Below are positions 65-19,059 of a DNA stretch of 20,633 bases, in pieces (within the stretch, counting starts at the first letter, position 1; each line of letters starts with the position of its first letter). A model generated the notes under the pieces. The model searched no databases and was not told the DNA's origin. It saw nothing but the letters and a program-made list of their open reading frames with translations. The position numbers were made by a program, and so were the translations under genes. This DNA is from Saccoglossus kowalevskii (Eukaryota > Hemichordata > Enteropneusta > Harrimaniidae), in NCBI RefSeq assembly GCF_000003605.2, contig NW_003116454.1, positions 259,610 through 280,242 on the forward strand, read 5' to 3'.

Positions 65-96
65 AGACGTATAAAGTATACGCGCTGTATACGTCT
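65..96. repeat. Perfect 9-bp inverted repeat
   Basis: AGACGTATA at 65-73 pairs exactly with TATACGTCT at 88-96 around a 14-nt spacer that itself contains GTATACGCGC. The repeat could form a small cruciform. No gene is next to it apart from the LINE relic that begins at 210. A chance origin or the end of an old element are both possible. Confidence 0.6.
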
Positions 97-209
97 AGAC
101 CCTTGCCAAACAGGACGACATCAGTGCCGATTTGACCTGCCCCCCAAAATACTAAAAAAGTGTGTTATATTGTAACTTCAATTTCCGATTGATTCAGCTT
201 AATTATTAA

Positions 210-350
210 TTCAAGACTGATATATTCACGTCTTTGTGGAATTCAAGTTACGTAATAGTTCTATTCAAGTCACGTGATCCCAATGAAATGAATAATTATC
301 CCGGAATAACATTGTTTAGTTGTCTCTCAAAACATGTATTAAATGCTAAT
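210..350 (+). pseudogene. Decayed LINE reverse-transcriptase fragment (N-terminal RT motifs)
   Basis: This frame reads as the opening part of a non-LTR retrotransposon reverse transcriptase. It contains LWNSSYVIVLFKSRDPNEMN at about 231-290, followed at once by NYPGITLFSCLSK (about 294-332). The family pattern is W-N-x-S, then F-K-S-G-D-P, then N-N-Y-R-G-I-T-L-L-S-C-x-x-K, the first RT block upstream of the catalytic aspartates. The frame is closed upstream by TAA at 207-209. Downstream of about 350 it continues open but turns into lysine-rich, unrelated sequence. No YADD catalytic box, endonuclease domain or 3' tail is visible nearby, so this is a short dead remnant of about 47 codons. The motif is clear but the clade cannot be assigned from so little. 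Confidence 0.8.
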
Positions 351-1788
351 TACTTCAAACCAGTCAATAGGAAAAAAAGTAAAACAAAAATGAAAACAAA
401 TGCTCGAAACGTCTTAGTCAAAATATATTGTTTACAAACGTCCGCAGCGTCTTAAATTGTGCCTGTAATTACTAAATAAGTACATTCTCTAACTCGACAG
501 AAAGAACTGGAAATTGACATATTGCCTATTTTGAAAAATTCCGAATGCAACCATTGGTGGAAAGTTCGACCTCATTGTGGATTTTATAATACTTACATCA
601 ATGGGGTATGCAAGGTTGTAACCTCATCTTTACTTTATACTCAAACATTTTTTCTAAATCGATGCCATAAATTCTGATAATGCTTGTCGATACCTTCTTT
701 CATTTGCTTTATTACCAATGTACACATATAATAGATTTTTTTTTGGTATGGGATGATTCTGATATTTTTCCTTTTTCATGTCAGTACCAATGTTTACAGA
801 TATGCGCTGTGCGACGACCACCGCCCTTTAAAGTAGTTGTCTATTAATAAAAACTCATCGCCAGATTTCCTTTAATTTTTTTTTATTATTTACTGTATGT
901 TACCGATCACAAAATCCAGGGAAAAAGGTATGGTCACCGAACTACTTTTCTCACAAACTTGGAAAATGAGTCAAACATACAATTGATGAGCCATTTGCCA
1001 TTGGGTCCTATGGTTAAAAGGTTACGTTATATCTCAACATCTCATGTAGTTATAATATGGGTACTTATGTTTGTCCCGAAATTATTGGGAAATTCTAACG
1101 AATACTATTTATGTTTTTATGAAATACTGCTTTAATACGAATTTATATGTTGAATAGTTCCAAAAAAAGGTCAAACTTTTCAGACACAGTTTATTATTTT
1201 AAGAATGGCATACTGCGGGTGTTATAAGTGCAGAAGTATCGTTTTTAAACATGTGACATCACTCTTAAATATGCGTAACATCAACATGATAATAGAACAA
1301 TCTCCACGGAATCTTAAACAAATTACCTCAGGGCACGTATTCTCAAGAGTTCATCCTGCAAGGATATATCACCCTCTGGCGACGAAGCTGAAAATGTTTA
1401 ATAGATGACATCCGGGAAGTGACATCGTCTGATCAGACAGGTTCGTCGTAACTGCTCTAATCACTAATCGTTTTACAAGCGATAGTAATTAATATAACCG
1501 TAAACGTCAGTGTATTTTTTTTAAATCGATAAATGTATGATTAAAAGCAGGGTAGTACATCAACTGCTTAATCACCGAAAAGACAGAAGGAAACAAATGG
1601 ATACCCATCCTTCAAAAAAAAGGTTTTACATTTTATAACAGAAGGGAATATATCTGGTATTTATTCATGTACAAATATTTGAAAAAAATCCCTAAACGCC
1701 GGACTCCACATAAATTCGAATCGGAATATGACCAGCAATTACCAAAATAGTGATATGACTAATCAACATTGCCATAACCTTTTTACTG
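351..1788. other. AT-rich non-coding stretch, no gene recognised
   Basis: The sequence is AT-rich with frequent stops in all frames. The only open frame of note (1205-1408, 67 codons) has no recognisable motif and looks like chance. Homopolymer T runs occur near 738-745 and 880-890. I see no RNA gene or mobile-element end. Confidence 0.6.
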
Positions 1789-2072
1789 TACAATGTTATC
1801 TTTCTGTTATTTGGACAATTCTGCGATAATATTATCTCTCTTGCTATTGGGACCATTCAAGGATAATATTATCTCCCATATTCTTGTGACAACTCATGAA
1901 TAATATTATTTTTTTCTGTTCCTGTGACAGCTGAGGGAGAATATTATCTCCCTTGTTATCGGGACCTTTTACGGATAACATTATCTTTTATTTTCTATGA
2001 ACAATTCGGGAATAATATTATCGCCCCTGTTCTGGGGACAACTCGGGATAATATTTACCCCTTTCTTGGATG
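1789..2072. repeat. 37-bp minisatellite, eight degenerate units with a palindromic core
   Basis: Units start close to 1789, 1825, 1862, 1899, 1937, 1974, 2011 and 2047, a spacing of 36-38 bp. Most units begin with GATAATATTATC, a perfect 12-bp palindrome, or a one- or two-base variant of it. This is followed by a CTCCCTTGTTCTTGGGAC-like segment and then by AACTC plus a few bases. The fifth unit contains GGGAGAATATTATCTCCC, so the dyad can extend to about 18 bp. The copies differ from one another by several substitutions, which marks an old array. The first unit and the last, truncated unit are the most diverged. No ORF spans the array. It could be a free minisatellite or the internal array of an unrecognised transposable element. 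Confidence 0.85.
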
Positions 2073-4565
2073 TTTTTTTTTCAATTGAATCTAACAATAT
2101 ATAATTTTTGCTCTAAAAAGATTTGTTGTGTCAGGCTTCATATACAGATAATTATTTGTCATTCGATGTGTTAAGTGTAAATAAATATATTAAATTGTAC
2201 TATCTTGTGAGCTGTACAGCGTATCGCATTCGATAGAACATCAATTACCTGCCTGCATTAACAATTCGTTGAGATCATGAATTACCTTTAAAAATATATA
2301 TAACATAATATTTGCAATAATGTGGTGAAGTGGTTGAACTAGAACTCAGCACAACTTTTATATGGATACTGGTATTGGGATATTAAAGCGACAGATGTCT
2401 AGAGCAAATCCGTTGTTTTTATCACAAGTGTAAAAAAATCAAAATCAAGTGTATCAATTATAACATTTTTAATAACATTTTCTTGATTTCAGAAACGATT
2501 GTTTGTTTAAGTTGGCCGGAGGAGGCGACGACAATTAGGCCGTATGTGGGTACCTTGTTTTTTTTTTTTTATATATTACCATTAATAGTTATCATTGTAT
2601 GTAGCATACGTATACATGTTACCCAGTAGGAAAGCAAAGCTGCTTAAAAAGGGACAATATTTACACTGTATGTTAAACATATTTTAGGAACTCTCCTATA
2701 ATAAACTTGAATGTTTAAATTGTGAATATGTAAATTTATTTTGTGTGCGTGCATGATTTGTGAGAATCAGTTTTCGATTTTGCCTGAAACACTCGGAATA
2801 TAAATAAATAATGTTTTAATTGCCAACAACATCCATATTCCTTATTGTAGTTTTTTTAGAACAAATATTCATCAAAAATGAAAAAAAAAGATATATCATC
2901 ACGAAAAGAAGAATAACCACTCAAGGCACACAAGGTAATGGAATATGCTTTACAATTTTGACGAAGAACTCTCAGTTAAACCACAACAAAAAACATGCAA
3001 TTATTGTGAGCCGACCAGCCTTCAAATATAGAATTATCCATACATTCCACATCTCTGACGTATTCATCATTCCAGAATAATCTGCGACATAGAATGTAAT
3101 TCAAACTGAGCTTAGGACATGTATTCCGTCGGATTTACCTTAATATGATTAATCTAACCGTGTGAACCGACCTTCAGTAACCGTACGATCAGTAACCGAG
3201 TTATAAACTAAATGAGAGCGACAACTTTTAGAATATACACCAATCTGGCCTTTGTCTGTGTACCAGACTAGGAATACTACTTAGATTCAGTTTCTACGCA
3301 CGAATACGTATTATGTTTGCAATTCGAAGTAACCCATTGAATATAATACCACTATTTATTGCACATACGTCGTACGTCAGAACGTATACACAGCATTATT
3401 ACTCAATGAAAACATATGTGTTCCAATCAAGAGGGCTTTTACTTTTACATCGTGACAAACAGGAATGTGTTAAAGAGGTGGTTTAACCAAACATGACCTC
3501 TCGTGTTTTTTTATCTAAACAATGAAGACCATCCGCCAGAATATATTTTTCATTATGTGTGATGCTATTAGTGTGTTAGTTTTCATCGAGTTGTTTTAGA
3601 TAGGATTGCCTCATACTTCATCCTTGTTGCAACTACTCGGTACTGGTGTACCCATTGATGGATTTATACAATTATTTTGAGATCAAGTTCACTCATTGGG
3701 CTAATAGTCCTTTCCTGTCTCTTTACATATTGTATTATTATTGCATTTGATGTTTTTCAGACAATTTAAGGTAGTCTTATAATTCATGAGAAAGTTGGCA
3801 TAAATCGTGTGAAAATATTCATCTTTTTTTTATTTACAAGAACGTCATTGTGGTTCTATGATATTAGTAAACAAATTAGCAAACTATTATTTATAGACGT
3901 TATGTACAGAACAGTGTGATAAAGCAATATAGCATTTTTGATTCATTTTGTGAACCAGATATATAATTTTTTCACTAAATGTCTCCAGCCAACAGTTTGA
4001 GTTATGGCATAATATCTCCACCATAGTAGGTAACCAATGGCAACACAGTTCTGACGCTGACAAAAAATAACCGCCCGTGATACACTAAAATATGAGCAAA
4101 AATATATATGAGAAAATAGGCTGGTTTTAAGGTGTATATCCTCTTATTGCCCGGGAGAAAAATATATTGCAAACTGAATAAATTGTGGATATGTTCATTC
4201 TTGACGAATTACGAAGAATATTGTGTAAGCCTTCGTTCTGTTAATAGCAAAAAGTAATAGACATGTATTATTCGTCATGTTTTCATGTCAGAAAAGGCTG
4301 GCGTCAAACCAGACACTATCATTTAGTCTCGAGAGGAGTGCTTTATATGTATAAGTAGGTCATATGAGTATGTTGTAAAACAAAAACGATTCCATATCGC
4401 TGATTTTAAAAATGTGAACGCTGACTTTTTTAACGAAACTCTGATTGAGGTATCACACTACAATGGTGGATAGCACGGGAGATCAGATCGGCTGGAAATT
4501 GGTCGGCGCGAATTCATCTGTGATAGCGCGAACATGAAAGTTTTCGCGGAAACGGATCATTGTTT
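2073..4565. other. AT-rich non-coding stretch
   Basis: No coding region with recognisable motifs is present. A T13 run lies at 2558-2570, just after a weak exon-like segment at 2493-2549 that is described in the findings. The 86-codon frame at 2820-3080 is lysine- and isoleucine-rich and resembles no family I know. No RNA gene or mobile-element terminus is evident. Confidence 0.55.
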
Positions 4566-4591
4566 AACAGTTCGCAGTCATGTGAACTGTT
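4566..4591. repeat. 8-bp inverted repeat AACAGTTC / GAACTGTT
   Basis: AACAGTTC at 4566-4573 pairs exactly with GAACTGTT at 4584-4591 across 10 nt. Flanking T and A runs add further partial pairing. It sits in a locally GC-richer patch (about 4470-4600) with several CG dinucleotides. The half-site spacing does not match a steroid-receptor element, which uses a 3-nt spacer, so no function is assigned. Confidence 0.45.
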
Positions 4592-6440
4592 TAAAAATGA
4601 CCCATTTTAGGAAATAAAGGCGCATAAATATTCATTGATCAGCCTTGGGGCATTTGGTGGCCAACGAAGAGGAGTTATCAGTCAGCGAAGCGACGAAAAA
4701 GAATATTAAATAAATATCAAGCTATTAAATAGTTGGTCATCTCGATGCGTGCGAGATGTATCCTTGTTGAATATATATATGTATATATATACGTATTTTG
4801 TGTATAGGATTCAGTGTCCCCATTTTAGTCTCAATCTATATTTATTACCAAATAGACACCGAGATAATTAATTTGAATTGTTGAAGTCGAATTGTAAAAA
4901 GCAAAAACCGATACAAAGCCAATTCACTTAGTTTTCACACAAAAAACAAAACAAAACATTGAAGACAAAGTATCTAATATAAAACGAAACAATATATTGT
5001 ACTCTCATTTTGTCTTTACATTAATTACTTATGGTATCCCCAAGGATTACGTAGAATGCGACATCGTAAACCAACGATTCGTGAGTTGTAAAACACATTG
5101 CAAGCCAGACGTCCTTTACTTCACCGTTTTAAATCAAGTTCGGTTCCTCTTAACCAAAACAAAAAATACCCCAATTTCTCCATAGTATTTAGTTGATTTT
5201 CCTGAATATAAATTACCCCTGGATATTTGGGGCCAATTCCTTATACATAGGCATGTAAAGGAAATTACGGGCACAACTAAATGTGAATTTGGGAAATCAA
5301 CTGATTGTTTTTTTTCGATGTATTTGTCTCCGTCTTTCCCGTGTCTAGCAAATCTCTGCTGTCTATATTTACAAGAGAATTATTACGCCCCTCGAATTTT
5401 CAGAAGATCGAGTTGCCCCCATGACCCATGCAAGTTATGACCTTGAAGCGAGCTATGGGTTCCAACAAATATGGCATAGCGACAATAAAACTAATGGAAT
5501 GTTACGTAGTTACGTTTGTTCGGATTGCAAACGCAAAAAAGTATACCACTTACTTAAATTCGAATGTATAGGCGACAATTTAAATCTCCCATTGGAGTTT
5601 TGATGTGAATCTAGTGAAGACCATATTATGAAAATCTCATGACAATTCCGGGATAATTCATACGAGACTGAAATAGTGTTTATCGATCTCAAATCTGACA
5701 GTCGTCATGACGCCATATTGTTTACGGATGCAAGCGTCATCTGCAGATATATTATTCCATTATTATCTTCGAATAGTGGACTTGCAGAGCACAGAAAGGA
5801 AGAGAGACGGAGCGCATTTACACGAAGGCTCATCTGGGGAATATGACTCACAATCTATCCACCGGCAAATAATCTGCAAACAAAGAGAAGAAGCAATGAA
5901 TGTCTACTACCTTAGCTAAAACGGCTACTCAGCGTGAACATTACAACTTGGTAACCACCGCAACTCAGTGAAAGTCAATTCTATAGTTGTAAGCTTATAA
6001 TATAATTAAGGAAAATATTTAAAAATCTGAAAAATTTAGTACTGTCAACAAATTCTTGATTTCTTTGTTAAACCTATTTATAATTTTTTTTTCTTTCAAA
6101 CTGAAACGAGGGATTCTGTATATTGGCCGATGAAATAACATTGGTAATTTTTCTAATGACATCATTGCGCACTACGCAATTTATTTAGTTGGTTCGATTC
6201 AACCGCCGTTGAAATTTATGAATATTTATAAAAATGGGTTTGTTGTGCTGACAGTAATTGGTTGTAATGAACCCCACAACGTGATACAATGTCGCCCATG
6301 ACACCTATCATGCCAATCAGAGAACAACTCACTTGATTATCAGGTTAAACACCAATTTTTAGTCAGTACCAATTCTGTTGGAACGCTGGGAAGGCATCCA
6401 GTTGGAATATGATTTGTATATAATATTCCAAATAACACGT
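4592..6440. other. Non-coding stretch with AT microsatellite
   Basis: An alternating AT tract that is partly palindromic lies at about 4771-4795. An A- and C-rich low-complexity run lies near 4938-4958. The short open frames at 5421-5603 and 5707-5919 start with ATG but have no recognisable domain and no clear splice context. I treat them as chance. A GGTTCGATTCAACC segment near 6190 resembles a tRNA T-arm but has no matching tRNA body. Confidence 0.5.
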
Positions 6441-9363: not shown

Positions 9364-9502
9364 TAGACCGCCATTCACAGCGCCGTGATTATTTGGATTT
9401 GTGGTTGTCCATTAATACCAACTTCACTCTGTTACAAATATTTACTTAATGACTAACTACTACTCAACCAAACACAATGCCGTAGAAACCGTACCGACCA
9501 TA

Positions 9503-9549
9503 CCGGCTATGGCCGGACCACTTCTGCACGTCCCCCCTAGCAGACGTGG
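9503..9549. repeat. Two adjacent GC-rich hairpins
   Basis: The first is CCGGC-TATG-GCCGG at 9503-9516. The second pairs CCACTTCTGC (9518-9527) with GCAGACGTGG (9540-9549), matching at nine of ten positions around a 12-nt loop that contains a C6 run. The patch is far GC-richer than its surroundings and ends 18 bp before the target-site duplication of the Mic19 retrocopy. Confidence 0.5.
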
Positions 9550-9567
9550 TTCTTCGGCGATTTATTG

Positions 9568-9580
9568 AAAATGTGTATTT
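9568..9580. repeat. Target-site duplication, 3' copy of the retrocopy (AAAATGTGTATTT)
   Basis: These thirteen bases are identical to 10395-10407. On the minus strand the sequence (AAATACACATTTT) directly follows the A-run that ends the retrocopy, as expected after LINE-mediated target-primed insertion. Confidence 0.85.
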
Positions 9581-9605
9581 TTTTAGGTGTCCCATTAACT
9601 TTCAC

Positions 9606-9611
9606 TTTAAT
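9606..9611 (-). terminator. Polyadenylation signal ATTAAA of the retrocopied mRNA
   Basis: ATTAAA on the minus strand is the commonest natural variant of AATAAA. It lies about 21 nt before the terminal A-run, the expected spacing for cleavage. An AATAAA also occurs farther upstream at 9655-9650, about 65 nt from the tail, and is less likely to have been the signal used. Confidence 0.65.
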
Positions 9612-9836
9612 AACCTTATTTCCATGCGGTACAAAACTCATATAGCATGTTTATTTTACATCTAATAAATATTTCATGCTTAGAATATACATGAAAATAG
9701 CAAATGGATTTAGAGGGATAACACTGCAATGTTGCATTGCATGTGAAATAATAAATTGTCTAACAGACTGATGATCAAAGATATTCTAGTTATAACAGTC
9801 CTTGTAAAAAGCACACTTTAATATGTTGATTTCTGA

Positions 9837-10325
9837 TCATAATTTTCCTGAGATTTCACGCTTTGTTAAAACACTATTTCTTGTAAGGTCTACACAGTTA
9901 GTGAATGCTCTGACCTCAGCTTCACAAATTAATGTCTCTCTGAGATTCATAGTGTAACATTTCAGTACTTCCTCTTGTAGATCTTTACACGCCGGTGGAT
10001 ACGACTGGTGTACGGAATTAGACTGCACATCTTCTGCTGACTTCGTGAACTGTTTTGATGTCAGTCTGTATAATTCAGCATTCTTGAGTTCTACTTGTCT
10101 AAGCTTTTCCTTTCACTGTCCTTCAGACAATTGTTTCCGAAATTCTTCATCTCTTTCCAAATCCACAGCAGTACTTGTCTTTTGGGAACCGGTTTGCTTT
10201 ACCGATCCTTTAGGTTCTTCTTCTCCCATCATGCGCCAGACAACGGCTTCAGATGTCTCTACTGTGCCCGTTTCTTTGTCCATCTCTACCGCCACTTTCT
10301 TTGGGGTGCTACCAGAAACTCCCAT
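9837..10325 (-). pseudogene. Mic19/CHCHD3-like MICOS subunit, intronless copy with one in-frame stop
   Basis: Mic19 is a peripheral inner-membrane protein of the MICOS complex that shapes mitochondrial cristae. The copy opens with MGVSGSTPKK, where Gly2 and Ser6 fit an N-myristoylation signal as in Mic19. An acidic, variable segment leads to DEEFRKQLSEGQ. TGA at codon 71 (10115-10113) interrupts the frame, then KEKLRQVELKNAELYRLTSK and a C-terminal CHCH domain follow in the same frame. That domain has Cys113-X9-Cys123 and Cys134-X9-Cys144, both exact twin CX9C motifs that form disulphides after Mia40-dependent import. The total of 162 codons, including the TGA, compares with about 227 residues in the human protein. 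Roughly 60 residues of the central coiled coil are absent. The first ATG upstream of GVSG is the likely original start, since the triplet before it is TTG-AAA. The insertion hallmarks make this a processed pseudogene. A truncated 70-residue product or a C-terminal CHCH peptide cannot be excluded. Confidence 0.85.
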
Positions 10326-10394
10326 TTTCAACTAACAGACCTCGAACAGTAAATGACCGCAAACACAAATTCCAGGACCACCACAGCAAGCACA

Positions 10395-10407
10395 AAAATG
10401 TGTATTT
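10395..10407. repeat. Target-site duplication, 5' copy of the retrocopy (AAAATGTGTATTT)
   Basis: Identical over 13 bases to 9568-9580. Read on the minus strand it is AAATACACATTTT, preceded by TT, so the inferred nick site is TT/AAAT. It marks the upstream boundary of the inserted mRNA copy. Confidence 0.85.
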
Positions 10408-10920
10408 AACAAACCAAAAAAAAATTCTCGAAAAATCTGATTTGATTACTTCTTCTTATTTAATGATGTTCATTGCCACACTTAAGGATGACATTCATCG
10501 CGACCTTTTATTACATTCATGATATATACAGATACGTGGGATATATTTCAAATATTGATGTTACAATAAAATTTGACTGTGAAACAACACCAATAGAGAA
10601 TGGACAATATGGTACACTAGCAGTACGTGATATATTATAAAGAAAGAAGACGATGACTGTAACTCCATACCCATTGTGACAGAAATGAATATTTCACCGG
10701 TATATTTGTTACGTGTTTTTCCACAAAATACATGAAACTGACACTAAGCAAAACACGAGTTTCAGGATATAATTGTTTTAAATTTTATGTTGACTAGGTG
10801 GTATTACTAACAGGTATTAATATATTCATGTCTGTGTTATGTCACTATTGCCAGTGACTTCATCTGGTTTATGTAACATTTATATGTGTGACATAACGTG
10901 CGGGGTAATTATCTTTGCAG
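10408..10920. other. Non-coding stretch before an exon-like segment
   Basis: An A9 run lies at about 10415-10423 beside the retrocopy insertion site. No MADF domain or other recognisable coding sequence appears upstream of the candidate exon at 10921. The stretch ends in the acceptor-like GTAATTATCTTTGCAG. Confidence 0.5.
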
Positions 10921-18879: not shown

Positions 18880-19059
18880 ATCTATGATTGGGCGAAACAC
18901 AAACCCAGAAGTCGACAGGTTCAAATTCCGAAGATACCTAACGGGTTGTAACATCCCATAAAAGCCTAAGCTACACCACACCACACTACACTACACTACA
19001 CTACACTACACTACACTACACTACACTACACTACACTACACTACACTATACCTAAGCTA
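18880..19059 (+). repeat. SINE-like 3' end with microsatellite tail (tentative)
   Basis: GGTTCAAATTCC at 18918-18929 resembles the internal B box of Pol III promoters (GGTTCRANNCC) with one extra base. About 40-50 bp farther on, CCCATAAAAGCCTAAGC leads straight into the pentanucleotide array. Many invertebrate tRNA-derived SINEs end in a short A-rich stretch plus a simple repeat, which is the layout seen here. CCTAAGCTA occurs at both edges of the array (18965-18973 and 19051-19059). No convincing A box was found upstream, so the SINE call rests on the B box and tail only. Confidence 0.3.
18983..19048. repeat. (ACACT)13 pentanucleotide microsatellite
   Basis: About 13 perfect ACACT units follow a short degenerate lead of ACACC units (18974-18982). 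The run is broken by a CTATA variant at its right edge. The purity suggests active or recent expansion. Confidence 0.95.

Follow-up and report, generated by a model that had tools for sequence, protein, structure and literature searches.

The 814 bp between the 13-bp direct repeats at positions 9581-10394 of the window (the whole 20,633-nt stretch of Saccoglossus kowalevskii DNA analysed here, C1000:259610-280242) are almost certainly a Mic19-like processed pseudogene, probably formed via LINE-type reverse transcription. They amount to a near full-length mRNA copy of the organism's own seven-exon gene (Mic19/MIC25-like), which encodes a mitochondrial membrane protein. The copy lacks six introns at the splice points, is bounded by a target-site duplication, carries a short A tract and a near-complete 5′ end, and has its parent on another contig. 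Its parts, and the sequences at its ends, are as follows:

9568..9580: target-site duplication at the 3′ end of the retrocopy, an exact 13-mer whose last three Ts are As in the mRNA sense and are common with the A tract
9581..9584, minus strand: oligo(A) remnant, four As outside the repeat, or seven with the three that are shared
9585..9596, minus strand: 12 unmatched bases, AATGGGACACCT, without counterpart in the parent region in the alignment
9597..9836, minus strand: 3′ UTR-derived part (parent exon 7), with 20 of 233 aligned sites different and gaps of 8, 7 and 10 bp
9606..9611, minus strand: ATTAAA, 21 nt before the A7 run; ATGAAA in the parent
9615..9620, minus strand: AATAAG, where the parent has AATAAA
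9837..10325, minus strand: CDS-derived part, 162 codons and a stop, Mic19-like, disabled
10113..10115, minus strand: premature TGA at codon 71 of the copy; TGG in the parent
10326..10393, minus strand: 5′ UTR-derived part, 68 bases with 4 differences from the parent
10394, minus strand: single base between the homology and the repeat, T in the mRNA sense and C in the parent
10395..10407: target-site duplication at the 5′ end of the retrocopy, an exact 13-mer

A seven-exon parent gene on another contig

The DNA of the insert was compared with the 572,110,611-base assembly (4830 contigs) and matched seven places: one is the copy, and the other six are exon-sized pieces of contig C2920 (minus strand, 536551-550911); the third exon, of 29 bp, was recovered by local comparison. 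The parent gene comprises seven exons over about 14 kb, the limits of which were drawn with the copy as guide (all on C2920, minus strand):

550911-550775: exon 1
545481-545433: exon 2
544698-544670: exon 3
542075-541974: exon 4
538773-538703: exon 5
537729-537594: exon 6
536840-536551: exon 7, with 536551 as the last base with homology

Its six introns, of 5293, 734, 2594, 3200, 973 and 753 bp, are all of the GT-AG type (6/6). The parental frame of 164 codons is intact, and the encoded protein scores 36.7 bits against PF05300 (MIC19_MIC25), above the gathering score of 33. All six exon junctions are uninterrupted in the copy; the parent is a multi-exon gene, and the copy passed through spliced RNA. 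The preliminary description had read this stretch as an intronless minus-strand copy of a nuclear mitochondrial gene, had predicted a multi-exon parent and had named an intronless parent as the finding that would speak against it; the parent identified here has six introns, and that reading stands.

The copy lies on C1000, its flanks are unrelated to those of the parent, and within the 901-bp query the homology to the parent locus is confined to the DNA between the repeats. An ordinary DNA duplication with later loss of the introns, or a product of gene conversion, is scarcely credible as the origin of such a copy: we found no point in support of either, the six introns are gone at the splice points, an A tract and a flanking duplication are present, and the flanks show no homology to the parent locus.

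Target-site duplication and chance controls

The 13-mer AAAATGTGTATTT is found exactly at 9568-9580 and 10395-10407 and at no other place in the window, which bears out the perfect 13-bp duplications of the preliminary description. LINE-mediated target-site duplications are about 7-20 bp in size, and 13 bp falls inside this range. When one or two mismatches were allowed, AAAATGTGTATTT matched three more places in the window, a number reached in 33 of 100 shuffles, so that weight is given solely to the exact pair and to where it sits.

The longest word common to the flanking stretches 9551-9600 and 10326-10450, both picked after the repeat had been seen, is 13 bases long. In 20,000 dinucleotide shuffles of both stretches, a common word of at least 10 bases arose in 80, of at least 11 in 13, of at least 12 in 3, and of at least 13 in 1. 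Exact repeats are not unusual in themselves: 31 distinct 13-mers recur somewhere in the window, a count that includes tandem arrays, and the 3-kb neighbourhood holds two further exact pairs of 12 bases; the element that is not due to chance is the presence of the AAAATGTGTATTT pair at both ends of the copy.

Insertion site and mechanism

Read along the inserted mRNA, the target is TTTGTT/AAATACACATTTT, and in this orientation the TT/AAAT site inferred in the preliminary description is supported. This site is one mismatch from the TT/AAAA consensus nick site, and TTAAAA is described as the target of L1-type insertion (PMC4838847). The 3′ A tract directly adjoins the duplication and is short. 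The A7 run reported earlier is present at 9578-9584; three of its seven As belong to the repeat, and the tail is accordingly 4-7 As long.

Taken together, the target, the A tract and the duplication favour LINE-type target-primed reverse transcription as the best mechanism. The action of LINE machinery on host mRNA, as proposed in the preliminary description, is likewise what would best account for the TT/AAAT target, the A tract and the exact duplication. LINE-type machinery in a germline cell would have copied a spliced, polyadenylated mRNA of the C2920 gene into DNA, after its endonuclease had nicked the strand opposite TT/AAAT (as read along the mRNA). The T-rich 3′ end released by this nick would then prime on the poly(A) tail, and a staggered second cut would give rise to the 13-bp duplication. 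Afterwards the copy drifted under little or no constraint and acquired its stop codon. Of these steps, the involvement of a LINE enzyme, the setting in the germline and the sequence of the two cuts are inferred. Several points stand against this best explanation: an A tract of only 4-7 bases, 12 terminal bases with no match in the parent region, the absence of ATTAAA from the parent, and the occurrence of exact 12- and 13-mer repeats elsewhere in the window.

A region on the plus strand at 210-452 was considered as the responsible LINE and rejected, being RT-like by eye only; it matched nothing in Pfam and no other place in the genome at the DNA level. The genome loci examined (141,655 bases, with overlaps counted repeatedly and locus L001 inside the window skipped) contained no RT active-site motif. 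Of the window's 112 stop-to-stop pieces of at least 50 codons, four other than the Mic19-like ones were searched against Pfam, and none matched at E up to 1 (0/4).

The 5′ and 3′ ends of the copy

Parental homology starts at 10393, one base from the duplication. The intervening base, 10394, may be an mRNA base, an untemplated base, or a 14th, mismatched base of the repeat. Complete leaders had been claimed for this copy, and mRNA ends matching 10394 and 9585 had been predicted; judged by homology to the parent, the prediction holds at the 5′ end, give or take one base, and fails at the 3′ end, where the last 12 bases have no match in the parent region.

The ATTAAA signal noted earlier is indeed in place in the copy, but today's parent has ATGAAA there, with AATAAA upstream, and the difference may reflect a later change in either the copy or the parent. 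The parental AATAAA, which lies 18 nt before the last base shared with the copy, is likely to be the real poly(A) signal. A GT-rich stretch follows that last shared base, and the end of the shared homology would be expected to be a good place for cleavage.

The 12 terminal bases may be explained by an indel or end-turnover in the 3′ UTR of the parent, by untemplated filler, or by a template switch. The 19.5 kb around the parent contain no match to AATGGGACACCT on either strand when up to two substitutions are allowed; when the limit is raised to three edits, three partial matches of 9 to 11 bases appear from exon 6 onward, which were judged to be chance.

One could instead suppose a 3′-chimeric retrocopy, for which reverse transcription was primed on another A-tailed RNA (AATGGGACACCT followed by As) and then moved on to the end of the Mic19 mRNA as its template. 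The lack of a match to the 12 bases around the parent would fit such an origin, as would the end of parental homology 18 nt past AATAAA and just before the GT-rich stretch, where cleavage is expected. However, no abundant donor is apparent, as TGGGACACCTAAAA has 6 occurrences in the genome, one of which is this copy, compared with 2 for the backward control; moreover, an indel or end-turnover in the parent 3′ UTR explains the 12 bases equally well, and there are three other gaps in that UTR. We consider a 3′-chimeric retrocopy unlikely, and the narrower proposal, in which the terminal 12 bases are the trace of a switch during priming away from a second A-tailed RNA as template, slightly less likely still. 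If such a switch did occur, the copy would be a two-part retrocopy.

A LINE tail was also considered as the origin of the terminal 12 bases and rejected, given the 6 genome matches against 2 for the control and, among the matches listed, no context common with the copy. The other five TGGGACACCTAAAA places lie in unrelated-looking contexts, and two pairs among them are repeats (among the matches listed). Two of the loci reached via TGGGACACCTAAAA, both on contig C3041 (L015 and L016), are filled over their entire 3 kb by a satellite of about 54-bp units. Two further loci, L014 and L017 (contigs C1339 and C3255), hold two copies that are 98.9% alike over 2305 bases; L014 contains an open frame of 506 codons that appears transposase-like by eye.

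Disablement, divergence and age

Translated on the minus strand from 10325 down to 9837, the copy yields a Mic19-like protein interrupted by a single in-frame TGA at 10113-10115. The copy is a pseudogene owing to this TGG to TGA change at codon 71, a disabled frame being one of the marks of a processed pseudogene. When read through, with X at the stop, the copy scores 22.9 bits against PF05300 (MIC19_MIC25), under the cut-off of 33. A PDB search gave one weak and uninformative match (E 0.17), an Rfam search gave no matches at E up to 0.1, and a tRNA search with bacterial settings found none.

The copy differs from the spliced parent at 63 of 790 aligned sites (8.0%; 38 transitions and 25 transversions; K2P 0.085), and four internal gaps of 6, 8, 7 and 10 bp separate the two; this divergence is pairwise and covers the changes of both lineages together. 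Differences at codon positions 1, 2 and 3 number 12, 10 and 17, each of 163. Pairwise dN is 0.067, dS is 0.144, and dN/dS is 0.47, calculated over 161 of 162 aligned codons (the TGA codon was omitted). As estimated from the alignment, this ratio is near that given by a free copy compared with a constrained parent.

A retrogene that is still used, whether for a shortened protein or as a regulatory RNA, is very improbable. The full-length copying of the 5′ UTR would be compatible with such use, and so would a pairwise dN/dS of 0.47, which is below 1, though it includes the parent's own constraint. On the other hand, the TGA at codon 71 takes away the C-terminal cysteine (CHCH-like) region, and differences at positions 1 and 2 are almost as frequent as those at position 3 (22/326 vs 17/163). 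No function of the copy is indicated.

If substitutions are assumed to accumulate at 2 to 8 per 10^9 sites each year, rates that are not species-specific, the copy and the parent would have split about 5 to 36 million years ago. The preliminary description had called the insertion probably recent, a claim that we do not retain in view of the 63 differences in 790 sites, the four internal indels and the premature stop. Near identity to the parent, the mark of a recent or polymorphic retrocopy, was not observed. At the observed divergence, the probability that the 26 bases of the two repeats would stay unchanged is about 0.15-0.33, and exact duplications therefore do not show youth.

Comparison with known retrocopies

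The Mic19-like copy is an ordinary processed pseudogene, of a kind that is well known. Retrocopies numbered from 78 to 4738 per genome across 12 chordates, and their number tracked that of L1 and not of other LINE types (PMC3136929). Like the chordate retrocopies described there, the present one is an intronless copy of a multi-exon gene in the same genome, and its premature stop places it in the retropseudogene class of that study; unlike them, as they are described, it has 12 unmatched terminal bases.

The L1-like retrocopies of dicots are characterized by the same three hallmarks of a TTAAAA-like target, a poly(A) and a target-site duplication, and a case from cassava has a 13-bp duplication with one mismatch and a 15-bp A tract (PMC4838847). 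In comparison with the cassava case and the dicots of that report, the Mic19-like copy has TT/AAAT rather than TTAAAA, its repeat is still exact, and its A tract is shorter. It also resembles the tailless retropseudogenes reported from therian mammals, with a flanking duplication and little A tail (PMC5322556); according to the same source, however, the therian ones are truncated internally and the tail is absent, whereas the Mic19-like copy has 4-7 As and a nearly whole 3′ UTR.

No Mic19/CHCHD3 retrocopy was seen in the literature among the matches listed (titles and the starts of abstracts), which is no proof of absence. As one well-bounded case, the copy suggests that an enzyme capable of copying ordinary host mRNA into a TT/AAAT site was once present in the germline of this lineage. 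It could also be put to modest use, both as a freely mutating stretch that would serve as a clock and as an insertion that would be either common to relatives or absent from them.

Flanking DNA and neighbouring repeats

In the left flank, 9474-9558 covers roughly one half of a repeat some 170 bp long, which is found in at least 33 other places in the genome. These other copies give no empty site, because the repeat copy in the window breaks off about 9 bases short of the duplication. In the 800 bp of the right flank, no second genome match was found by a search that skips simple repeats and very common words.

The repeat at 9474-9558 appears MITE-like: its left ends are mostly CAAGGCCGTAGGAA, and the right end in L022, TTCCTACGGTCTTG, is nearly the reverse complement. 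Elsewhere in the window, a tandem array with a unit of 37 bp (7.2 copies) occupies 1792-2055, and a CTACA tandem array of 15.6 copies, with 97% matches, extends over 18971-19048.
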